From Tetraselmis striata (taxonomy: Eukaryota; Chlorophyta; Chlorodendrophyceae; Chlorodendrales; Chlorodendraceae), in the NCBI GenBank assembly GCA_006384855.1, contig VCJN01001531.1, positions 132,001 to 196,000 on the forward strand: a DNA stretch of 64,000 nt. The letters run 5' to 3'. How positions within the stretch are numbered: the first letter of the stretch is position 1; every line of letters starts with the position of its first letter. Below the pieces are notes generated by a model. That model saw only the letters and a program-made list of their open reading frames with translations. It searched no databases and had not been told where the DNA came from. Below are positions 11,445 to 44,160 of this stretch, one piece after another. Made by a program: the position numbers and the translations under genes.

Positions 11445-13142
11445 GGGTGCCCTTATTCTGCTGCTGACAGCTCAGTAAATAGGGATGTAAGTGATGTGTG
11501 TGTTACATCATGCTGTCCAGTAACTGTCGAGTCGCATGACTGCGAAGTTACTGTTGCCGATATGTCATTGGCACCTGAGGTATCCGCATTATTGTCTAAT
11601 GCACGTCTGAATGACGATATACCTGTGACGAGTACATGTTCGAGTGACGATGTCGTCATCTCTGAGAGTAGTAACGACTATGTTGAGTCGCCTACTGATG
11701 AGAACTCGAATAGTGTACGCGAGTCTGGTACGACTTTGCCAGTAGCATGTGTAACGGGTGCTCGGAAAGTTTCGACTCATCGTCGCGTAAAGGCTCTGAG
11801 GCGTCGTATGCCTAGAAAGACTGCAGTCAGTGCCGAGTGGCGACTGGTCGATAGAGTCTTCGATCCCTTACATGAGATGTTCCAGTTTACGCTGGAGGGC
11901 TGTGCGGATAATGAGGGTCTGAATACCCATCGAAACTTGCCGTTCTGTTCAGAACAAGATTCGATATTATCGCGCGACTTGTCGAATGAACGTGTGTTTA
12001 TTCACCCTCCATGGCATATGACTGAGTCTATTGCGAGGCATTTTGAGCAATGCCGCAGTAGGGCTAAAGAACATACTGTAGGAGTGTTTGTATTGCCTGC
12101 ATTTGATAGATTCAGTGCTTTGACAAAGCATTGGAAACTATTGCAGCAATACCCGGCAAAGACACCTTTGTTCACCAGGTGGTCTCATAAAAATGCCACA
12201 GTCCAGGAAGATGTTAGACCGCCAAAGTATGGGGTTAACATTTGGTTAGTTGATGCTAACTGTGCTTTTCCTGATGACTTTGTACCTAAAACTGTCACAA
12301 GTCCAAATGTGAGTTTTAACGTGGACTCTGCAAAAGTTGCGGATTCTAGCGTTGGTATTGGTGAACGTGCATCTGAGTCTATAAATGAGTGTGATGCTGT
12401 CAATGTGACTGATCCATCATTTTGGAGTATGCAAAGGCAAGGTTTGCCTCAGATTGCTTCTTTGACTCGTTGGGATGACCCCAGGCCATTGTTGAAAGTT
12501 AATGTGACAATTAACAATTACGCCGTTGTGGATGCACTGGTTGATAATGCGGCATCTTTAGATTTTATATCTGAGGACTTTGTGCGCAGAAACAACTGGC
12601 AGATACAGAAGTTGAAAGCCAGAACACCTGTCCGTTTGGCTAATGGTCAACGTGTCTCATGTTGCCATACAACTGTTGTGTCTCTGTCTGTTGGAGGACA
12701 TGTATTTGAGAATCGAGTATTTTATATACTGCGTGAGCTCAAAGTCTCCGACATTGTATTGGGTTTAACTTGGCTTGATGAAGCGCAAGTTACCATTAAG
12801 TATGGTACGGAACGTATCATGACTTTAATGGATGGAACCCATGTACCTGTTGTAATAGTGGGTCGTACTCCTGCATGTAGCATGATTACTTCCACTAGGG
12901 TACAAAAGTTGATGCGCAAAACTGCTTGTGCGTCTAAGCATAATTCTTTGGCTGAATTCTATGTCGTTGAAATGTCGGTTATAAAGGATGATCCTGACCT
13001 GCATTTAGACAATGCTATGACACCAGAGCAAAAGGATGCTATTCGTCATTTGTTGTATGACGAGTTTCCTAAAATTTTGCGTCCAGTCAACAGGCCGCCT
13101 GTTCATCGGCCATGGGATCACAAAATTGAGTTAACTGGCTAA
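11445..13142 (+). CDS. Element I methyltransferase-like and protease region
   Basis: An open frame continuous with the zinc-knuckle frame after the TAG; a GTG at 11496 gives 548 codons, but no certain start is visible and it may be translated as part of a polyprotein. Residues (from 11496) about 115-260 match the layout of the Dam-methylase-like domain also seen in element II: EGCADNEGLNTH, then VFIHPPW where an enzyme would have a D/N-PP-Y/F motif. Asp/Asn is replaced by His, so it is probably non-catalytic. Residues about 335-450 are a retropepsin with V-D350-N-A instead of the usual D-S/T-G, a change in the active-site triplet. The frame ends with TAA at 13140-13142, directly followed in the same frame by the RT. 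Confidence 0.75.
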   Translation, partial: GCPYSAADSSVNRDVSDVCVTSCCPVTVESHDCEVTVADMSLAPEVSALLSNARLNDDIPVTSTCSSDDVVISESSNDYVESPTDENSNSVRESGTTLPVACVTGARKVSTHRRVKALRRRMPRKTAVSAEWRLVDRVFDPLHEMFQFTLEGCADNEGLNTHRNLPFCSEQDSILSRDLSNERVFIHPPWHMTESIARHFEQCRSRAKEHTVGVFVLPAFDRFSALTKHWKLLQQYPAKTPLFTRWSHKNATVQEDVRPPKYGVNIWLVDANCAFPDDFVPKTVTSPNVSFNVDSAKVADSSVGIGERASESINECDAVNVTDPSFWSMQRQGLPQIASLTRWDDPRPLLKVNVTINNYAVVDALVDNAASLDFISEDFVRRNNWQIQKLKARTPVRLANGQRVSCCHTTVVSLSVGGHVFENRVFYILRELKVSDIVLGLTWLDEAQVTIKYGTERIMTLMDGTHVPVVIVGRTPACSMITSTRVQKLMRKTACASKHNSLAEFYVVEMSVIKDDPDLHLDNAMTPEQKDAIRHLLYDEFPKILRPVNRPPVHRPWDHKIELTG

Positions 13143-15980
13143 ATGAAACGCCAAAGACTTAATCGTTTGTCTCCCGCTGAACGTGCTGAATTGGATCGCC
13201 AACTCAAAGATGCGATTGCCGCTGGACTTGTTCGTCCTAGTCAATCTGAGTTTGGTTCGCCTATTCTTTTTGTTAAGAAGGCAGATGGATCCCTTCGGTT
13301 GTGTGTCGATTTTCGTGGGCTGAACGAGGTCACTCGAAAGGATATGTATCCTTTGCCGCGAATTGATGAAACGTTGGATTCGCTCCGCAATGCCCGTTGC
13401 TATACCCATCTGGATTTAGCATCAGGTTATTGGCAGGTTGCCATTGAAGAGGAGGACATCCACAAGACAGCGTTTCAGACACCTGATGGTCTATGGGAGT
13501 GGACTGCAATGCCATTTGGTTTGTGCAATGCCCCAGCCACTTTCCAGCGCATGATGAATGACATCTCGAGACCATTTTTGCGTGACTTTGTGGTGGTGTA
13601 TCTGGATGATATATGTATATATTCAGATAATTATGATGACCACATAAAGCACCTTCGTTTAGTTTTTGAGAAACTGAATGAATATAATCTGAGGTTGCAA
13701 TTAAAGAAATGTTTCTTTGGCATGCAATCTATGGATTATTTGGGGTATACCGTCGCTGATGGTAAGTTGTCTGTTTCAGAGGCCAAAGTAGCTGCAGTTA
13801 GGGATTGGCCTGTCCCTAAAACTCAGAGTGAAGTCAGAAGTTTTGTACAATTCTGCAATTTCTACTCTAAGTTTATTCATCATTTCAGTGATTTAACTGC
13901 ACCATTGACTGACTTATTGCGTAAGTCTAAACCAGTTCATGTTGACGGGTCACCGGCGTGTCAGGAAGCCTTTGAGACCCTTCGTCTGCGACTGATTTCC
14001 GCTCCGTGTCTTTCCATTCCTTCCATGGGGGCGGATGCGACGTTCACCGTAGCGACAGATGCGTCCAACGTAGGGCTTGCTGCAGTGCTACTGCAGGACC
14101 AAGGAGGAGGTCCTCAACCAGTGAGTTACTGGGCGCGAAAGCTGAATGCAGCTGAGCGTGGTAATACCTACAGTGCTTATGATTTGGAAGCTTTGGCTGT
14201 CTGTGAATCAATTAAGCACTGGCGTTGTTACCTTGAAGGGTGCTGTCGATTCCTTGTTGTCTCAGATCATGACACCCTGCGTCATCTGCTCAGGCAACCG
14301 GCAGAAAGGTTGAACCGGCGACAAGTGCGCTATGTACGCGACTTGCAGCCGTTTGTAGGGTCCATATCTCTTGCATACCGAAAGGGCAAATGGAATGAAG
14401 CCGATCCGCTGTCGCGTAGACCGGATTTTAAGCCGATTGGTTTCGGTGGCTTATATTGGACCGGGGATGTGCCGGACGCGGCTGAATCACTCGTGAGTGA
14501 ACATCGCCCATGTACTGCGGTATTGTCGGCTGTAAGTGCGTCGTCACTTAGCCTTGATGCCAACGATGGTTATTTTTGGAGACATGGACGTCTTTGCATA
14601 CCAACCAATCGTGACATCATCAATAAGATATTGTATGAGCTACATGATTCTGTTGGTCACCGTGCTTATGCAAGCACCTTGGCACGTGCCTTGGACCGTT
14701 TTTGGTGGACACGCATACGACATGACGTGAAAACCTATTGTGAACAATGTTCGGTGTGCCGGCGTGTTAGTGCACGTCCGCAGCCACCTGCACCAACACA
14801 GCCCTTACCAGTACCGCCACGTCCATGGCATACGGTTGGTTTGGATTTTATAACCGAGTTACCTGAGAGTAATGGTTATAATACTATGTTGGTTGTGTGT
14901 TGCCATCTGTCCCGGCAAGCACATTTTATTCCAACCACAGTCAACGTGACTGGTGGACAGGCAGCTGAATTATTTCTGAAGGAAGTATTCAGGCTGCATG
15001 GAATACCTCGTGTGATCGTCTCTGATAGAGATCCACGGTTCCTGTCTGCATTCTGGCAAACTCTGTGGCGGAGACTTGGCACTAAATTGAACATGTCTAG
15101 TGGCCAACATCCTGAAACAGATGGTTTGACCGAACGCATTAATGCCATAGTCACTGAGTTGGCTCGTGCGTTTTGTTGTTTCGATGGTTCAAACTGGGTA
15201 GACCAGTTACCATTGATGGAATTTGCGTATAATTCCAACAAAGCACTTGGCATTGAGCATGCACCATTTGAGGTTATGTATGGTTTCAATCCTGAAACGC
15301 CTCCGGATGTATTGTTTGGTATGAGACCAACAATAGCATTCTCTCGTGATGCTCAGCAACGTATCCAAGATATGAAGGAGATTCACGAGTTGGTTCGGTC
15401 AGTGTTGGCTGTCCATAAAGATGAATTGACTGTTCGTCCTAGTGTTAGGCAACAGCGCAATCCTCCTATCTTCAATGTTGGAGATAGAGTATCTGTGGAT
15501 ACCCGTCTGCTTAAGGTCAAAGGTCAGCCTTGCAAAAAGCTGATGGACAAGCAGCTTGGCCCATTTTCTATTGTAGAGAAAATTGGCGGTCATAGTTATC
15601 GACTTAAATTACCTGTTGGTGTTAAGTTGCACCCAGTATTTCATGTTAATAACTTGAGACCCTGTCCCACTGCGCCGTTGCGCCCGCATGTACCTCTTGT
15701 TGTTGGTACCGGTGACGACTCTGATGATGAGTATGAGATTGACAAGATTACCAGCGTTAAGATCGGTTCCATGCCCGGTTTACGTGGTACTCAGTTGCAA
15801 TTTCTTGTTCACTTTGCGGATGAGTCTATTGCCCCTGTTTGGCATCGTTTGTTTGATGTTAAAAGGACAATAGCATTGCAGGATTTTATGGCTACTCCCA
15901 AATGGTTGGACTTTGTAAAGTCACCTGAATTTGTGGAGCATATGCATAAATACCCGGCACGTGTGCCGACTGCAAATTAA
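13143..15980 (+). CDS. Element I RT, RNase H and integrase polyprotein
   Basis: 945 codons, in the same frame as the preceding protease region and separated from it only by one TAA. RT at residues 25-210, with CVDFRGLN, MPFGLCNAPATFQ and V-V-Y-L-D155-D156. RNase H at about 298-385, with ATDAS, YDLEALAV and SDHDTL. The integrase zinc-binding region begins LHDSVGHRA and ends YCEQCSVC; the core keeps LDFITELP, VSDRDPRF and GQHPETDGLTERIN, i.e. all three DDE residues. The C-terminal 80 residues (EYEIDKITSVK...) resemble a chromodomain. The product would copy the element RNA and insert the DNA. The ATG right after the stop could be fortuitous, since the homologous region in element II is uninterrupted. 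All catalytic residues are intact, so this is a recently active element. Confidence 0.93.
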   Translation: MKRQRLNRLSPAERAELDRQLKDAIAAGLVRPSQSEFGSPILFVKKADGSLRLCVDFRGLNEVTRKDMYPLPRIDETLDSLRNARCYTHLDLASGYWQVAIEEEDIHKTAFQTPDGLWEWTAMPFGLCNAPATFQRMMNDISRPFLRDFVVVYLDDICIYSDNYDDHIKHLRLVFEKLNEYNLRLQLKKCFFGMQSMDYLGYTVADGKLSVSEAKVAAVRDWPVPKTQSEVRSFVQFCNFYSKFIHHFSDLTAPLTDLLRKSKPVHVDGSPACQEAFETLRLRLISAPCLSIPSMGADATFTVATDASNVGLAAVLLQDQGGGPQPVSYWARKLNAAERGNTYSAYDLEALAVCESIKHWRCYLEGCCRFLVVSDHDTLRHLLRQPAERLNRRQVRYVRDLQPFVGSISLAYRKGKWNEADPLSRRPDFKPIGFGGLYWTGDVPDAAESLVSEHRPCTAVLSAVSASSLSLDANDGYFWRHGRLCIPTNRDIINKILYELHDSVGHRAYASTLARALDRFWWTRIRHDVKTYCEQCSVCRRVSARPQPPAPTQPLPVPPRPWHTVGLDFITELPESNGYNTMLVVCCHLSRQAHFIPTTVNVTGGQAAELFLKEVFRLHGIPRVIVSDRDPRFLSAFWQTLWRRLGTKLNMSSGQHPETDGLTERINAIVTELARAFCCFDGSNWVDQLPLMEFAYNSNKALGIEHAPFEVMYGFNPETPPDVLFGMRPTIAFSRDAQQRIQDMKEIHELVRSVLAVHKDELTVRPSVRQQRNPPIFNVGDRVSVDTRLLKVKGQPCKKLMDKQLGPFSIVEKIGGHSYRLKLPVGVKLHPVFHVNNLRPCPTAPLRPHVPLVVGTGDDSDDEYEIDKITSVKIGSMPGLRGTQLQFLVHFADESIAPVWHRLFDVKRTIALQDFMATPKWLDFVKSPEFVEHMHKYPARVPTAN

Positions 15981-34248: not shown

Positions 34249-34660
34249 TGTTAGGCTCTAGCTTAAGCCTGCTCTTTAGGCCCTTTAGGATGCAGCGGAA
34301 GGATTTAGAAAGTATGGCCAATCTCTTCTGGTTACAGGGGTTCCTGGGTCATAGTTCTGTCTCTGACTTCTACCTAGTAGACTTGTCCGAGGCGGTATTT
34401 ATACCCGCCGAGGTCATAGTCATACCTGTGCTATGTTAGCCGGGTGTCATGGGATACCCGTGCTGTGTTAGCCACGTAAGGCTTGAGTCAGAGAACTCTA
34501 GAAAATTCCAGAACAGTCTTCGGCCTTATACTACTAGTATTTATACCCGCAATACTAATATATACAGCGACTCCGCGAATGCGTAGTCGTACTACCTTTG
34601 AGGGAGTTATACCTGCTAGTATAGCAGAACATTATGGCTAAAGGGAAATGGAGTACAACA
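34249..34660 (-). repeat. Element II 3' LTR
   Basis: 412 bp, nearly identical to 40532-40944 and to the extra copy at 16795-17207. On the reverse strand a TATAAATA box is centred in a near-palindrome, GGCGGGTATAAATACCGCC (34391-34409), and a second TATA-like site lies near 34540. Confidence 0.93.
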
Positions 34661-34746: not shown

Positions 34747-36170
34747 TCAGGCGGAAGGTACTCGGCTTGGGTAGCGATTCCGGAACCGAATGAAGTCTGG
34801 GCTCTCAGTAAACTGTCGGTATGGTTTAGACAGTAAGAACGACCGGAAAATGTCCAGGTGCTTGACTCCGCGTAGGGGCTCCCAGGTGTCTTCGCTTGGT
34901 ACGTTGTACGGGAACGCCCATCGCACTCGAAACAGTAGTCCAGTGCCATTGTTGTTGAAGGCAACATCGAGTATGTCCTGAACATGGAATCGGTTTGCGT
35001 CATGGACAATCGGTACTCGTTCAGACTTCGCCGGTTGATCAGGGTCGTCATACCACTTCTCCAGCATACTCGCGTGCACCACGTCGTGGACTCGTACGCC
35101 CGCAGGTAGTTGCAATCGGAAAGCAACTGGCGAGATCTGCTCTGTAATGACGAAGGGGCCCACGTAGCGATCGCGTAGCTTAGCACAGGGTTGCTGAATA
35201 AACTTCAGATGAGACGCTTTCAGCTTAACTCTGTCGCCGGTCTTGAATGGTACGGGTAGTCGTTTACGATTAGCTGCAGTCTGCATACGAGTTTGCGCCT
35301 CCATTACGCAATCATGCGCGAAGCGATGAAGCTCCTGTACATACTTGACGTGTTCCGGAAGAGCTCGAGTTGGCTCGGTTGCGAGTTGAGTAGTAGCAGG
35401 TGTAGTCGGCTCGAATCCCAAAGTCGCCTTGAAAGGGGACATAGTAGTCGAAGTCGACTGAGCAGCGTTGATCGCAAACTCCACGTTGGTGAGGTGGTTG
35501 ACCCAATCATCGTGCAGGGGGTGCACGTAGCAGCGTAGCACTTGCTCCCAAGTTTGGTTAGTCCGTTCCGTCTGGCCATCGGTTGCTGGATGAAAAGCTG
35601 TAGAGATGTTCAGCTTAGTACCCATGGTCTTGAACATATCTTGCCAGAATTCCGACATAAATCTGGGGTCTCGGTCAGAGATGAGTTTAGCCGGTAGGCC
35701 GAAATGACGAAAAACTGAGCGATGCATAATCTCCGCCAGGCCTTCAGCAGTAACTGTCTTCGTAGTTGGCTCAACAATTACTCGCTTTGACAGTAGACAT
35801 ACGAAAATCACTACTGAGTCATACCCCTGGCACTCCGGAAGATCTGTGATTAAATCCAGGGATATTACCTCAAATGGTCGTGACGGTACGTCATGGGGCT
35901 GAAGTAAGCCGTATGGCTTATGCCGGGCCGCCTTAGTACGTTGACAGGTAGGGCAGCGTCGCACGTAGTTGGTGACAGTCTGTTTCATACGGGGCCACCA
36001 GTACAGTTCCACAGTACGCGCCAGTAGTCGTCGTCCTCCTGGGTGTCCAGCAGTAGGCGCGTCATGTAGTTCGTACAGTGCTCGTTGTCGCAGGTCCGCC
36101 ACATTTGGTACGTAAAGTCGTGAGCCGTAGGCGTACAGTAGACCATTACTGTGACGTACTAGCCAGGATG
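34747..36170 (-). pseudogene. Element II integrase and chromodomain
   Basis: Reverse-strand frame 34747-36102 plus its open upstream extension to about 36185 (LPSWLVRHSNG, YGSRLYVPNVADLRQRALYE). Zinc-binding region from LHDAPTAGH to YVRRCPTCQR; catalytic core LDLITDLP, ISDRDPRFM, ATDGQTERTN (DDE intact). The C-terminal chromodomain is recognisable from FHVQDILDV, FRVRWAF and DTWEPLRG. The chain would integrate the cDNA and bind modified histones. It is out of frame with the preceding RNase H by one base near 36190 but otherwise undamaged. Confidence 0.93.
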
Positions 36171-37435
36171 GTAAAGCTTTCCCGCGATTTCAGGTACTCG
36201 TCGGAGTCATATGCGGTCTTGATTTCGTCGTAAAACTTGTTGTCCGCCTGTAGTCGCGACTCCATAGCAAATAAAACTGAATTTATTTCGCAGTCAGCCT
36301 CGTCTTCTGACCAGTTGTTCAGCAGATCTAGCTTCTGTAGCGCATCCTTCAAGTCGGGTCGCCGAGAGAGGGCGTCCGCATGATTGGCAGCTCCTCGCTT
36401 GTAGACGATGTCCATATGTCGTTGGTAAGGCGCAAACACTTGCAGCCATCGTACTTGCCGCGTCGACAAATCGCGTTAGCGAAAGAAGTGCCGTAGTGTG
36501 TCATGGTCGGTGATGACCGTAAAGCCCGCCGCTCCATCAAGGTAGCATCGGAACTTGATGAGTGCATCACGCACCGCTAACAACTCTTGCTCATGTACCG
36601 GGTAGTGAACTTCGTGTTTGTTCATCTTGCGTGCATGGTACGCGACAGGTCGAAGTCCTGAGCCTTGATCTTGCAGCAGCACAGCTCCCACTGCAAATCT
36701 AGAAGCATCTGTATACAATGTGTAACGGGCGTCCGCAGATGTGTCCGGTATACTCAGTACAGGTGCTCGTACCATTGCGTCCTTTAATGCACGAAACGCC
36801 GCATCAGCACGAGGCGTCCACACAAACTCCGGTTGATTCTTCGTCAGGTCATGTAGTGGCGCCGCAATAGCCGCGAAGTTATGGATGAACTTGCGGTAAT
36901 AGCCAGCAAGGCCGAGAAAACCTCGTACGTCCTTTACTGTCTTCGGCACGGGCCACTGTTGAACTGCTTCCACCTTCCGGGGGTCCATCTTGATCTGTCC
37001 TGCTTCGACGATATGGCCCAAAAACTCCACGCTAGTACTGCCGAACGAACACTTCGACAGCTTGATATGCAAGTGGTGTCGTTGCAACTCCCGTAGCACC
37101 AATCTGATGTGCTCGAGATGCTCTTCAGCTGTCTTGCTGTAGATCAGCACGTCGTCCAGGTATACCACGCAGAATTTGCCGAGATATGGGCTCAAAACAC
37201 GGTTCATCATAGTCTGGAATCCAGCTGGGGCGTTTGTCAAGCCGAAAGGTAACACAGTACTCGTAGAGTCCATAGTGTGTCCGGAACGCTGTTTTGTGGA
37301 TGTCTTCCGGTTTAATTCGTACTTGATGGTAGCCTTTGTACATGTCCAGAGTACTGAAAATAGTCGCACCATGCAATGAGTCCAATAATTCGTCGATACG
37401 AGGAAGCGGGGTCCGGTCTTTCTTCGTAAGGTCAT
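36146..37435 (-). pseudogene. Element II RT palm, connection and RNase H
   Basis: Frame 36476-37435 joins the RT after an extra T near 37250 (…YEY then VLPFGLTNAPAGFQ): CVVYLDDVLIYS, FLGHIVEAGQ, RNase H with LYTDASRFAVG, HEQELLAVRDAL and ITDHDTLRHFFR. There the codon is TAA (36476-36478) where the same frame continues RDLSTRQVRWLQVF through 36146, so a C-to-T change in a Gln codon is the simplest explanation. No catalytic residue is lost. Confidence 0.92.
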
Positions 37436-39400
37436 TCAATTTACGGTAGTCCACACACATACGCAGAGTGCCGTCTTTCTTACGCACAAATAAAATTGGG
37501 GCGCCGTAGTTTGACTTGGACGGACGAATCCACCCTTTTGCCAACAATTCCTCCAGTTGTGACCGTACCTCTTGCAACTCCGCTGGTGACATACGGTACG
37601 TTCGTTCCTTGGGGGGTTCATCACTTTCCAGGTTGATCTCAAAGTCGAACTCGCGCTCCGGTGGCAGGTCAGTAGGCTCCGCGATGATGTCTGCAAACTC
37701 CATAAGGGACTCCTTGAGCTCCTCGGTCCACTCGGTCGACTGGTCCGTGCGCAGCTCAGCTACCGCATCGAACACCTCGCGTACCGCAACAGCAAACAGT
37801 TCCTCGCCGCGACTCTTCCTCAGCTCCTTCGCCATCTTAGCCGCGTCCAGATGGTAAACCGTCGTAGGTACTGTATACTGTTCCGCTGTAGCAATGTGTT
37901 GTCCAGTCTTCCGGTGTTTGATAATTTTAGCAGTCCAGTCAATGTCAGGATTAACTGTTTCCAGCCAAGGTTGTCCGAGAATAATGTCGAATTTCTCCAG
38001 GTCTGTAACTATGGCGTCCAATTTATAGTCGAAAGCTCCTACGGTAAGTACTTCGCTCCTCAGCCGTTTGGTACTGGTACTCATACTGCCGTTCGCCAGT
38101 TTTATACGGTGTTTTCCTCCGGATACTGTAGGGCACTGATGCAATTGTATCCATTCAGTACTCGCAAAATTTTCGGTTGCACCAGAGTCCACCAGTATTT
38201 TACAGTGTCGTCCTCGCAATTCGCCAGTAATAGTCAGCAGTCGGGTACCACTCGGTGAAGATACGTTGCACAAACGCGATGTGGAGTCTTCGCCAGGTAG
38301 TCGGACGTTACGGTTGACATATTCATCAATTTGTTCGCCAAAGCTTTCGTACCGTAGTGGGTAGCGTACAGTCTCCGTCTCCAGATAACCCGTACTTCGT
38401 GCCTCCAATAATTTCTTCCAGGTTGTCCATAGTGCACGGTTCAAAGGGGTCTTCGTAGGTACAGTATTACGACGAACGCGATACAGGTATACAGGACACC
38501 GGTTGTCTCCCGTCCGCTGAGTGCCGAGGTACCGTAGATTGCTCTCCTGTACCCGGTACCCAGTTTGCTCGAGTAATCGTCGTACTGCTGTTGTCTCCGG
38601 CGTCGCGTCCGTGTCGCCGCGCTTGCCTTCTGGAAACCAAATCAGTCCGCTGTCTTCCACAGTCAGAAGCACTCGTCTTCCATCGGTTACTAGAACCTTC
38701 GAGTGCGTCCACTCAGGCTTCGGTGGGGTTCTCAGGTGCTGCGGTAGAAACCGTACGCCGGCGCCATCGTCAGCGTAGATCTGTGTCGCCCATCGAGTGG
38801 GGCCAACATCTTGTCTCGCACCTTCTATGCCATCGTTCGTTGGACACGTAAACACAGAAGTCTCCGCTGGCAACTCATCCACCAGACGAAAATTTCTAAG
38901 TAGTCGAAACCACGGCTTACGCGACCATTTTAGGACCACAATAATTGCTCGTAGATGCGGATGCAATAACTTCTGTCGAAGGTAGTGGCCCAAAAATTCT
39001 TCAATTCGGTCATACGGGGCATTTAGCCAAATACGCCGATATTCTCCGAGATCCTGTTCCTGAAATGGGCGCGTCGGACAGCAAAAACTACCACAAACTT
39101 GAGAATTCAGGCCGTCATTATCGCAAGCTCCGTCCAGGTCGCAGGGTCCGTATTTCTTCGTGTACTCGTGAAATAATTCGCGATGTACCATCCAGTCGCT
39201 GAAATCCTTGTGGAGGAAATCAGGCCTCAGTGTCGTTCGAGGATACGAGGGCTGTACTTCTGTAGTCTCGCGAGCCGTTTTAGGGGACAGTCCTTCACCC
39301 TGTCGCGCGCCGCGCGCCGCCGACTCACGTCTTAGTTTCCCGGCCGGGTCTTTCTGGGTCGATACTCGGAAATCTTCTTCTTCTTGCTCGGGCACACGGA
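37125..39400 (-). CDS. Element II pol: MTase-like, Nudix-like, protease, RT start
   Basis: A 756-codon frame read by -1 frameshift from gag, so the apparent GTG start is not meaningful. Residues 60-215 are Dam-methylase-like: CDLDGACDNDGLNSQ, then RIWLNAPYDRIEEFL, where NAPY stands for the catalytic D/N-P-P-Y/F. Residues 230-310 are Nudix-like: KVLVTDGRRVLL, GLIWFPEGK, then V-R272-R-L-L-E276-Q-T-G279-Y. Residues 395-485 are a retropepsin with the intact LVDSGAT triplet and IILGQPWL. From about 570, RT fingers (YGAPILFVRKKDG, CVDYRKLN). At codon 713 or so an inserted base (near 37250) ends the useful frame. The Nudix and methyltransferase-like modules have no known role in gypsy elements that I can cite; RNA-cap, nucleotide-pool or DNA-binding roles are guesses. 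Confidence 0.85.
38466..38708 (-). other. Nudix-like domain in element II pol
   Basis: Residues 230-310 of the pol frame. The strand pattern VLVTDGRRVLLTVED followed by LIWFPEGK is the usual entry to a Nudix box. The box keeps Arg, one Glu, Gly and the hydrophobics but has RR for RE and EQ for EE, so metal binding is weakened. It shares with the element I domain the Gly-Lys start and a loop one residue longer than standard. Confidence 0.72.
39302..39324 (-). promoter_or_regulatory. Candidate frameshift-stimulating stem-loop
   Basis: On the reverse strand GTCGGCGGCGCGCGG then CGCGCGAC: an extremely GC-rich self-complementary stretch starting ten bases after the slippery heptamer, just 3' of the gag stop. 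Exact pairing is ambiguous because of the GCGCGC repeats. Confidence 0.5.
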
Positions 39401-40492
39401 CGCAACATGACCTTTCGCCCTGCAGATAAAGCAGCGACCTTCCTTCTTAAATCTCTCAAACTCCTCCTCGGTCAATCGCCGCGCCATCAACAGGTCGTCT
39501 TCTTGTTCTGTAGCTTCACCCTCAGCACTGCTGTAGTACTGCTCGTCGTCGTCGCCATCGTCGTCCATGATGTTCAGGCGCTCGCGACGGATCTCGCGGT
39601 GCACATCTGTCTCCCGCTCCGCAGCTTCAACAGCCAGAGCTGCCTGTACAGCTTCTGCCAGGGTCTTAGGATTTTTCAGGGCAACTTCCTTTCGAATATG
39701 GGGTTTCAGTCCGCGCTGGAAGTCATGTACATTATCTTCCTCGTGACGATGGGGTAACTCCAGTAGTTGCTCGCGGAAATAATTCGCGTACTTCTGTACT
39801 GTAGTCCGCTGTGTCGCGCGATCCAGATTGATACGAGCTTGCTTCGCCGGTGTACGTCCACAGAATTCGGTGATTAGTGCCGCCTCCATGTGCGTAATAC
39901 CGGTAAAACCGCCGCCAATTTCGTCGTGCGTACTCGCCACTTGCGCATACCACCACTTGGATACAGGTCCGTGAAAATAGCCAGATGCCCAGTACACGCT
40001 ACGAGGTTCCTCCGGGTTTACATTGTGATATTTCAGGTAACCCCGTGCATGACGAAACCAGTTCCGTAGCTCGTCGATATTCGTAGTCGACAGCTTCTCG
40101 ATCTTCGTTGGTTTCACATCGCTCGGCATGAGCCCAGGCATGTCGCTGGTCCGGGCAGAACGAAGCTGGTCTCGCATCTGCTGCTCTACAACTCGGCTCC
40201 GGTTCACTCGGTCGTCGAAATGACTGAAGCCTTGTCGCACGTACTCGTCCAAGCGGCGAATCTCCACCGTTGCCGCCGTCGTAGCTTGCGCTACTTCTTG
40301 CATCTTCGCTTGCTCCGTCGACATAGTCTCGACTCGGTCGGCTAGTCGTTGAAGCATGCTCATCATGGTTGCGAGGGTCGGTTGCGTGCCCTCTTGACCT
40401 CCTTCGAGCGGAATCGGCTGTGCTTCGCCGGCAGTGGCCGCTACCGGAAAGCTTCCGCTGTCCTCAGGTGGTGTCTCTCCTGGTGTAGCCAT
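39332..40492 (-). CDS. gag: Element II Gag
   Basis: 386 codons from a true ATG, 40 bases after the LTR. N-terminal acidic/Pro region, then a coiled-coil-like helix (TMMSMLQRLADRVETM), a retrotransposon gag core (about 120-290: LRNWFRHARGYL, SGYFHGPVSKWWY, YANYFREQLLELP, FQRGLKPHIRKEV), an acidic stretch with YYSSAEGEATE, and one zinc knuckle CFICRAKGHVASVC (C-x2-C-x4-H-x4-C) near 360. It packages element RNA into particles. A truncated second copy starts at 16755. The C-terminal KKKKISEYRPRKTRPGN ends at the frameshift site. The reading frame is intact. Confidence 0.93.
   Translation of the reverse strand: MATPGETPPEDSGSFPVAATAGEAQPIPLEGGQEGTQPTLATMMSMLQRLADRVETMSTEQAKMQEVAQATTAATVEIRRLDEYVRQGFSHFDDRVNRSRVVEQQMRDQLRSARTSDMPGLMPSDVKPTKIEKLSTTNIDELRNWFRHARGYLKYHNVNPEEPRSVYWASGYFHGPVSKWWYAQVASTHDEIGGGFTGITHMEAALITEFCGRTPAKQARINLDRATQRTTVQKYANYFREQLLELPHRHEEDNVHDFQRGLKPHIRKEVALKNPKTLAEAVQAALAVEAAERETDVHREIRRERLNIMDDDGDDDEQYYSSAEGEATEQEDDLLMARRLTEEEFERFKKEGRCFICRAKGHVASVCPSKKKKISEYRPRKTRPGN
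39335..39341 (-). promoter_or_regulatory. -1 ribosomal frameshift heptamer GGGAAAC
   Basis: On the reverse strand the gag frame reads CCG GGA AAC TAA; slipping back one base on G GGA AAC gives GGG AAA CTA AGA, which is exactly the pol frame. The heptamer fits X-XXY-YYZ, is of a type used by some retroviruses, and abuts the gag stop (39332-39334). Confidence 0.82.
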
Positions 40493-40517
40493 CTTTACGT
40501 CGCTTACCGCTGTCTAA

Positions 40518-40531: not shown

Positions 40532-40944
40532 TGTTAGGCTCTAGCTTAAGCCTGTTCTTTAGGCCCTTTAGGATGCAGCGGAAGGATTTAGAAAGTATGG
40601 CCAGTCTCTTCTGGTTACAGGGGTTCCTGGGTTATAGTTCTGTCTCTGAATTCTACCTAGTAGACTTGTCCGAGGCGGTATTTATACCCGCCGAGGTCAT
40701 AGTCATACCTGTGCTATGTTAGCCGGGTGTCATGGGATACCCGTGCTGTGTTAGCCACGTAAGGCTTGAGTCAGAGAACTCTAGAGAATTCCAGAACAGT
40801 CTTCGGCCTTATACTACTAATATTTACGCCCGCAATACTAATATGTACAGCGACTCCGCGGATGCGTAGTCGTACTACCTTTGCGGGGAGTTATACCTGC
40901 TAGTATAGCAGAACATTATGGCTAAAGGGAAATGGAGTATAACA
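40532..40944 (-). repeat. Element II 5' LTR
   Basis: 413 bp, differing from the 3' LTR at only a few sites, which points to a young insertion. Confidence 0.93.
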
Positions 40945-40959
40945 ATGTCGATGCCGGAC

Positions 40960-41590
40960 CTAAGTTGTGGACACGCACCGGCTTGACGATACTATACGTA
41001 CGGATTGCAAGGCAATATCGCTAATACTTGATATTTGTTGGCGGCACTCCGCAGATTGCTCCAGCGCTATACCGCAGATGCTGCCTTTAGGCATGCTTTG
41101 ATTGCCTAGATGGCTGCAAACCATTTGGTATGCGGGGCTGCATGGCATAGAAGGGATGCGAACACGCACCGGCTTGACGATACTATACGGATTGCAAGGC
41201 AGTTCCGCTAATACCTTATATGTGCTGACGGTACGCCGCAGATTGCTGCAGCGCTGCACCGGAGATGCTGCCTTTAGGCATGCTTTGATTGCCTAGATGG
41301 CTGCAAACCATATAGTATGCGGGGCTGCATGGCATAGAAGGGATGCGAACACGCACCGGCTTGACGATACTATACGGATTGCAAGGCAGTTCCGCTAATA
41401 CCTTATATGTGCTGACGGCACACCGCAGATTGCTGCAGCGCTGCACCGGAGATGCTGCCTTTAGGCATGCTTTGATTGCCTAGATGGCTGCAAACCATTT
41501 AGTAAGCGGGGCTGCATGGCATAGAAGGGATGGGAACACGCACCGGCTTGACAATACTATACAGATTGCAAGGCATGTAAGACAATGTTC
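40960..41590 (+). repeat. 186-bp satellite, array 2
   Basis: Marker GCTGCAAACCAT at 41113, 41300 and 41487 (period 187). The array begins a few bases after the element II LTR and runs into family X copy B DNA at about 41590. Confidence 0.92.
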
Positions 41591-43069: not shown

Positions 43070-44160
43070 CAACGGCGCACCGCAGATTGCTGCCTTTAGG
43101 CAGGCTACAACAGCCTAATAGATGGCTGCCAACCTTTAAGTATGCGGATTTAAATGACAAAAGGGGATCTTAATTGCGCATATGCTTCACAATACTATAT
43201 AGATTGCAGGGCAGTTCCGCTAATACATGATATTTGCTGACGGTACGCCGCAGATTGTTGCAACGCTGCACCGGAGTTGCTGCCCTTAGGCATGCTTTGA
43301 TTGCCTAGATGGCTGCAATCCATTTAGTAAGCGGGGCTGCATGGTATAGAAGGGATGCGAACACGCACCGGCTTGACGATACTATACGGATTGCAAGGCA
43401 GTTCCGCTAATGCCTGATATTTGCTGGCGGAACACCGCAGATTGCTGCAGCGCTGCACCGGAGATGCTGCCTTTAGGCATGCTTTGATTGCCTAGATGGC
43501 TGCAATCCATTTAGTAAGCGGGGCTGCATGGCATAGAAGGGATGCGAACACGCACCAGCTTGACGATACTATACGGATTGCAAGGCAGTTCCGTTAATAC
43601 CTGATTTGCTTGCGGAACACCGCAGATTGCTGCTGCGCTGCACCGGAGATGCTGCCTTTAGGCATGCTTTGATTGCCTAGATGGCTGCAAACCATTTAGT
43701 AAGCGCGGCTGCGTGGCATAGAAGGGATGGGAACACGCACCGGCTTGACGATACTATACGGATTGCAAGGCAGTTCCGCTAATACCTGATATTTGCTGAC
43801 GGCACACCGCAGATTGTTGCAACGCTGCACCGGAGATGCTGCCTTTAGGCGCGCTTTGATTGCCTAGATGGCTGCAAACCATTTAGTATGCGGGGCTGCA
43901 TGGCATAGAAGGGATGTGAACACGCACTGGCTTGACGATACTATACGGATTGCAAGGCAGTTCCGCTAATACCTGATATTTGCTGGCGGCACGCCGTAGA
44001 TTGCTGCAGCGCATCACCGCACATGTAGCCTCTAGGCATGCTTTAACTGCCTAGAATGCTGAAAACATTTAGTAAGCGGGGCTGCATGGCATAGAAGGGA
44101 TGTGAACACGCACCGGCTTGACGATACTATACAGATTGCAAGGCATGTAAGACAATGTTC
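43070..44160 (+). repeat. 186-bp satellite, array 3 (about 6 units)
   Basis: Marker GCTGCAA(A/T)CCAT at 43312, 43499, 43684 and 43871, and a variant at 44058: periods 185-187. Units carry GCTTGACGATACTATACGG and TTTAGGCATGCTTTGATTGC. Confidence 0.93.

Follow-up and report, generated by a model that had tools for sequence, protein, structure and literature searches.

A Nudix-fold domain under selection in the Gag-Pol of a Ty3/gypsy element from the alga Tetraselmis striata

Introduction

A 64,000-nucleotide stretch of the Tetraselmis striata genome (assembly GCA_006384855.1, contig VCJN01001531.1, positions 132,001 to 196,000 of the forward strand; hereafter the window) contains on its minus strand a Ty3/gypsy element, in which a segment between gag and protease resembles Nudix proteins. 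Does the polyprotein of this retrotransposon hold a genuine Nudix domain, and what would such a domain do there? A first-pass annotation, made from the sequence alone, had proposed a Nudix-like domain with weak or no catalysis. As reported here, the domain is real, under selection and unreported within the literature searched; in the family of the window element it is most likely a binding module, and in sister elements perhaps an enzyme.

Results

Identification of the Nudix domain

The segment is contained in P0001, the translation of a 773-codon open frame on the minus strand (window:37125-39446). The motifs on which the first-pass annotation was based, KVLVTDGRRVLL, LIWFPEGK and RRLLEQTGY, were all found in P0001 on that strand, and the interval given for them, 38466..38708, corresponds to residues 247-327. 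This interval lies inside the domain, which extends beyond it to approximately residues 236-375, as judged from the alignment and the structure model (Table 1). The placement between gag and protease was likewise correct, while a Dam-like domain directly upstream had been overlooked. Pfam NUDIX (PF00293) matched whole P0001 with 25.6 bits (E 1.3e-5, residues 251-327, down to base 38466) and the 157-residue segment alone with 30.0 bits (E 6e-7). Since both scores exceed the curated cut-off of 21.1 bits, the resemblance is more than a matter of chance. The predicted model has the alpha/beta/alpha Nudix fold, and structure searches with it (Foldseek, VIA) returned Nudix folds and not another fold, so that profile and structure agree with the proposed identity. 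A first model, built from seven close sequences, was discarded as too poor for use (predicted local distance difference test, pLDDT, 50.2).

The Nudix box

The window box reads G-x5-D-x8-R-R-L-L-E-Q-T-G-Y. Compared with the box of active enzymes, GX5EX7REUXEEXGU, its spacing is one residue longer and two of the three REUxEE glutamates are missing. In MutT numbering, which together with the roles of E53, E56 and E57 (general base, metal ligands) we take to apply here, the window family has R for the general base and Q for one metal ligand. RR replaces RE in all 37 element loci examined in the genome (36 distinct copies), and each of them has lost the same two of three glutamates. Among the 20 aligned rows the box arginine and the acid of G-x5-[DE] are invariant (20/20 each), and the E56-equivalent is E in 18 rows and D in one; the E53-equivalent is E in only two rows and the E57-equivalent in only one. 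The losses in all these loci of the genome, with similar ones in most other rows, support the weak or absent catalysis suggested earlier. One metagenome relative, P0015, has the box RELFEETGY, a full REUxEExGU, in front of which D replaces E and the spacing is x8 instead of x7. Another, P0010, has REVFEIMGY, keeping RE and E56 with I in place of E57, and the P0011 group has RALTET-like boxes, several of its members looking frame-shifted further on (by eye).

Copies in the genome and selection

The genome scanned comprised 224 Mb in 2,903 contigs, and its 63 matches to chlorophyll a/b-binding proteins agree with the algal host that had been assumed. For one of these proteins the closest solved structures were 9vfj and, after it, 7d0j and 6kac of Chlamydomonas, which makes a green alga likely. 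We scored 150 places among 457 candidates; the copy number is therefore at least 150. In all 150 the domain was present, stop-free and 96-100% identical, and in 56 of them it stood within a single frame of at least 1,500 codons (hand count). An insert peculiar to the damaged window copy is ruled out by these other copies. Comparison of the window domain with an old copy (L031; Nei-Gojobori, 140 codons, stop-free) gave synonymous and nonsynonymous distances of dS 0.446 and dN 0.122, a ratio of 0.27. The ratio of nonsynonymous to synonymous polymorphism (pN/pS), pooled over the copies kept from 33 loci including the window copy L001, was 0.37 for Nudix (25 copies), 0.51 for Dam (24), 0.31 for protease (22) and 0.06 for reverse transcriptase (RT; 8); loci that were gapped, covered less than 90% or fell short of the region were left out. 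Because decay after insertion is included, the ratios of active elements are expected to be lower than these values.

Relatives outside the genome

P0005, a polyprotein found in a different public source, likewise runs Dam-Nudix-protease-RT and is 57% identical across 92% of the query region. Taken separately, its Dam is 60.4% identical to that of the window element, its Nudix 58.6%, its protease 49.5% and its RT 85%, and the Nudix parts align over 140 residues with zero indels. A profile search brought in 18 metagenome proteins with E between 5.6e-57 and 8.1e-8; in one of them Nudix runs into a protease-like stretch (P0014) and in another Dam runs into Nudix (P0015). The latter is 69-72% identical to copies of the window genome over Dam and Nudix (149 copies scored). 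No relatives were confirmed in viral contigs or prokaryote genome contigs, and in the large protein search the nearest non-element proteins (P0028-P0031) reached just E 3.1-8.4. These four served as outgroup for a domain tree of 19 of the 20 rows (P0025 was dropped as too short), in which P0015 stands beside the window group with support of 0.64; internal support is weak and the tree does not fix the number of losses. Recent capture of a host gene was rejected: the non-element Nudix loci that were retrieved included no close host paralogue, and the sole one to match the domain at E<=0.01 was L032 (33% over 52 residues, E 0.003).

The Dam-like neighbour and the order of events

The Dam-like domain (PF05869) scored 27.8 bits in the whole protein and 30.5 bits in the genome scan, against a cut-off of 28.1, and in relatives 39.1 (P0009), 21.1 (P0005) and 18.8 bits (P0006). 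Active Dam members carry motif IV as (D/N)PP(Y/F/W). The window element, P0005 and P0015 have NAPY instead, and NAPF is found in P0007, P0013 and P0025, NPPF in P0006 and P0009, and NPPY in one genome copy (L078). Related Dam-like segments occur in the gypsy polyproteins P0005-P0007, P0009, P0015 and P0025. In P0006 and P0009 protease comes after the Dam-like domain, and NUDIX is not among the matches listed. Of 3,893 candidate genome places 45 were scored against P0009; they are 45-46% identical to its residues 147-818, and their positions mark them as copies of the family of the window element.

The window holds a second gypsy element, element I (11445-15980, plus strand), with a diverged Dam-like stretch at about residues 150-287 of its first frame and an HPPW motif. 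This stretch is 23% identical to P0001 residues 104-241 (E 2e-8, a single comparison). At E<=1e-3 Pfam found only protease in this frame, and there is no room for a Nudix domain, since the Dam-like part ends near residue 287 and protease begins at 352. Because Dam passes to protease without NUDIX in P0006, P0009 and element I, Nudix was most likely inserted between the two in one Dam-gypsy lineage. As cellular Nudix enzymes carry the full box, the sequences are most plainly read as the capture of an active domain, which subsequently lost its chemistry in more than one lineage.

Other Dam-like sequences were recorded as well. Eleven loci (L039-L046, L048, L050, L052) have RT/RNase-H-like sequence followed by Dam with NPPF or NPPS (by eye), DIRS-like by order alone. 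Three more (L047, L049, L051) are stand-alone Dam frames of 193 codons with NPPF, near-identical at three places, which may be cellular or mobile genes. In a public gypsy polyprotein of 1267 aa, P0008, which also has a Tudor domain, the Dam-like segment lies beyond integrase, towards the C-terminal end and not where pol begins.

Probable expression by frameshifting

The gag frame terminates as G GGA AAC TAA, so that the heptamer GGGAAAC, presumably a -1 frameshift heptamer of known type, abuts the stop. The same string of heptamer and stop was present in 15 of the 17 loci tested. The sequence 3' of the slip site is GC-rich, with a predicted fold of -23.8 kcal/mol (94 bases; a value without shuffled control), and a -1 shift would open directly into the Dam-Nudix-protease-RT frame. 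Judged by these features, the Nudix domain is probably made only within Gag-Pol.

Architecture of the element

The features are collected in Table 1. Paired long terminal repeats (LTRs) together with gag, RT/RNase H and integrase frames identify the element as Ty3/gypsy, with pol in the order protease, RT, RNase H, integrase. The lack of aspartyl protease and of DDE integrase by which DIRS elements are recognised does not apply, as both profiles match. The window copy is damaged, as its frame changes within RT and is interrupted ahead of integrase; the Nudix part is stop-free. The exact LTR ends were placed by eye at TG...CA, and no target-site duplication was found there (by eye). A tandem array with a 187-base period adjoins the element (window 40999-41575), and a second stretch was seen by eye at about 43150-44150.

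Table 1. Features of the window, with residue numbers of P0001
Feature	Position	Strand	Basis
Nudix-fold domain, residues 236-375, in frame in pol	38322..38741	-	Pfam NUDIX; Foldseek and VIA matches
Degenerate Nudix box GKRGDTDATPETTAVRRLLEQTGY, residues 274-297	38556..38627	-	Sequence; alignment column counts
Dam-like (PF05869) domain, residues 84-235, motif IV NAPY	38742..39197	-	Pfam match 84-181; end at 235 estimated
GGGAAAC heptamer, then gag stop TAA; probable -1 frameshift site	39332..39341	-	Sequence; frameshifting putative
Gag open frame, first ATG 40492	39332..40513	-	Ty3_capsid and Retrotrans_gag over cut-off; zf-CCHC (zinc knuckle) below
Retropepsin-like aspartyl protease, DSGA motif, residues 400-510	37917..38249	-	RVP_2, Asp_protease_2
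Reverse transcriptase start, residues 654-730	37257..37487	-	RVT_1 profile 1-116; frame breaks afterwards
Remaining reverse transcriptase and RNase H, different frame	36476..37435	-	RVT_1 111-205, RT_RNaseH_2
Integrase (H2C2, rve, SH3_Tf2-1) and weak chromodomain	34747..36189	-	Pfam; rve and Chromo under cut-offs
5' LTR	40532..40944	-	403/417 aligned positions match other LTR
3' LTR	34249..34660	-	Paired with 5' LTR
Element I, neighbouring gypsy: Dam-like and protease, no Nudix found between	11445..13142	+	Pfam, single comparison

Discussion

The explanation that we find best overall, and consider fairly probable, is that the domain is a non-hydrolytic binding module of Gag-Pol, derived from a captured Nudix protein of the MutT/RppH type. 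A Ty3/gypsy lineage whose pol already began with a Dam-like methyltransferase domain would have gained the Nudix domain between this and the protease, and as a part of Gag-Pol the Nudix domain would reach the virus-like particle in small amounts. In the window family the hydrolase chemistry appears to be gone or very weak, but purifying selection maintains the Nudix fold together with one acidic ligand and the arginine and glycine of the box. The domain would then most likely bind nucleotides, or the element's own RNA or cDNA, without hydrolysis, and would work alongside the Dam-like domain, which itself also has an altered motif.

Rather unlikely, in our judgement, is a ligand-free folded spacer or scaffold which aids folding or cleavage of the Gag-Pol precursor. 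Variable catalytic positions among many constant ones would suit a spacer, as would the likewise altered Dam motif IV (NAPY/NAPF) in those Nudix-bearing sequences that show the motif; however, the architectures of P0006 and P0009 exist without Nudix, and the stretches TDGRRVLL and LRxLGT are conserved across rows. We regard as improbable a still working hydrolase with altered residues, which would clean the dNTP pool for reverse transcription or trim RNA 5' ends, with oxidised or N6-methylated dATP as example substrates that fit the Dam-like neighbour. Such activity is favoured by the full REUxEE box of P0015, by the E56-equivalent retained in nearly all rows, and by YtkD/RppH and MutT as top curated models for the domain, though all of these were sub-threshold and every NCBIfam equivalog score was far below its cut-off. 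Moreover, R and Q stand in the window at the E53- and E57-equivalents, where glutamate is absent from 18 and 19 of the 20 rows. In Dcp2 a single E-to-Q change is reportedly disabling. Variants of this kind have been crystallised, according to their titles (4kg3, 4kg4). MTH1, a Nudix hydrolase, hydrolyses N6-methyl-dATP according to the available text of PMC7152754, in favour of a hydrolase. As a long shot, a paired Dam-Nudix module in algal gypsy Gag-Pol might edit or read modified nucleotides during reverse transcription, as an enzyme in P0015-type sisters and a sensor here; for example, the methyltransferase would mark new cDNA, and Nudix would remove or sense N6-methyl-dATP or an RNA 5' end. 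Chance resemblance or a different fold has a very slight probability and was rejected on the Pfam segment score and the structure matches, which with the perfect P0015 box stand strongly against it, despite a weak single-sequence phmmer match to PDB (E 0.26), no Pfam NUDIX at E<=1 in full-length P0005, whose segment nevertheless matches within alignment A1, and none at E<=0.1 in 11 of the 20 rows of alignment A2.

Several observations weigh against a non-hydrolytic binding module as we describe it. The retained E56 and G-x5-[DE] acid might leave weak metal-dependent activity, and some Nudix enzymes rely on glutamates outside the box. The intact box is known from one metagenome sequence only, P0015, whose frame stops just past it (254 aa; longest contig 1116 bases). 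The P0011 group does not represent 13 independent losses, because its 13 rows are close kin and several look decayed, and the altered Dam motif also occurs outside the Nudix lineage, as P0007, with no Nudix shown, has NAPF. Pfam NUDIX reaches E<=0.1 in only 9 of the 20 rows of A2; confidence of the model is middling, with residues 1-15 and 138-157 below pLDDT 50; and the pN/pS of Nudix is looser than that of RT and near that of protease, so that constraint is moderate.

Compared with hydrolases of the MutT and BsRppH-YtkD type, the window domain has the same fold, strand order, FPxGK loop, and R and G of the Nudix helix; it differs by its place within a retrotransposon polyprotein, by the two missing glutamates, by the box one residue longer, and by scores under all listed equivalog cut-offs. 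CFIm25/NUDT21 is a Nudix fold without the glutamates required for hydrolysis which binds nucleotide and RNA (PMC3695940, available text). It was absent among the sequence matches of the window domain, and RNA binding by the latter is putative.

Among retroelements, a gypsy lineage of Ectocarpus has a NADAR domain in Pol (available text of PMC12477816), similarly an accessory nucleotide-related enzyme domain in an algal gypsy at a like place; NADAR is another domain family, and Nudix is unmentioned in the main text of that paper. KnitGypsy-Dnmt3 of Klebsormidium has Dnmt3 in Pol under purifying selection (PMC5890265); this is likewise a methyltransferase domain in Pol, but a cytosine one structurally unrelated to Dam, and no Nudix is mentioned in the text available. 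These two elements are precedents for capture of Nudix. DIRS elements share the Dam profile (PF05869) in a retrotransposon Pol, but place it after RNase H and have a tyrosine recombinase, with no Nudix mentioned in the available parts of PMC3783388 and PMC3266345. A review of accessory domains of retrotransposon polyproteins (PMC6338049), as far as its text was available, lists chromodomain, DnaQ-like exonuclease, helicase, Dam and Dcm. It counts green algae among the hosts of Ty3/Gypsy and DIRS elements that encode Dam and Dcm, and Nudix is absent from the same text. A Dam-like domain in gypsy is therefore not new as such, because the review already names such elements. Our search on Nudix with gypsy or LTR elements, retroelements and gag-pol covered titles and abstract openings, with most subscription papers and transposable-element databases outside its scope, and among the matches listed none described such a domain, in agreement with the first-pass annotation, which knew of no gypsy element with Nudix.

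Capture of small nucleotide-handling enzymes by LTR elements is rare in the literature covered. Here the outcomes of one capture can be compared: the active-site motif is intact in one relative and degenerate in several different ways in others, and the fold is kept throughout. A family of at least 150 copies in one genome is a good system for asking why an enzyme fold outlives its lost chemistry, and what benefit a nucleotide-binding partner beside a DNA-methyltransferase-like domain brings to a retroelement.
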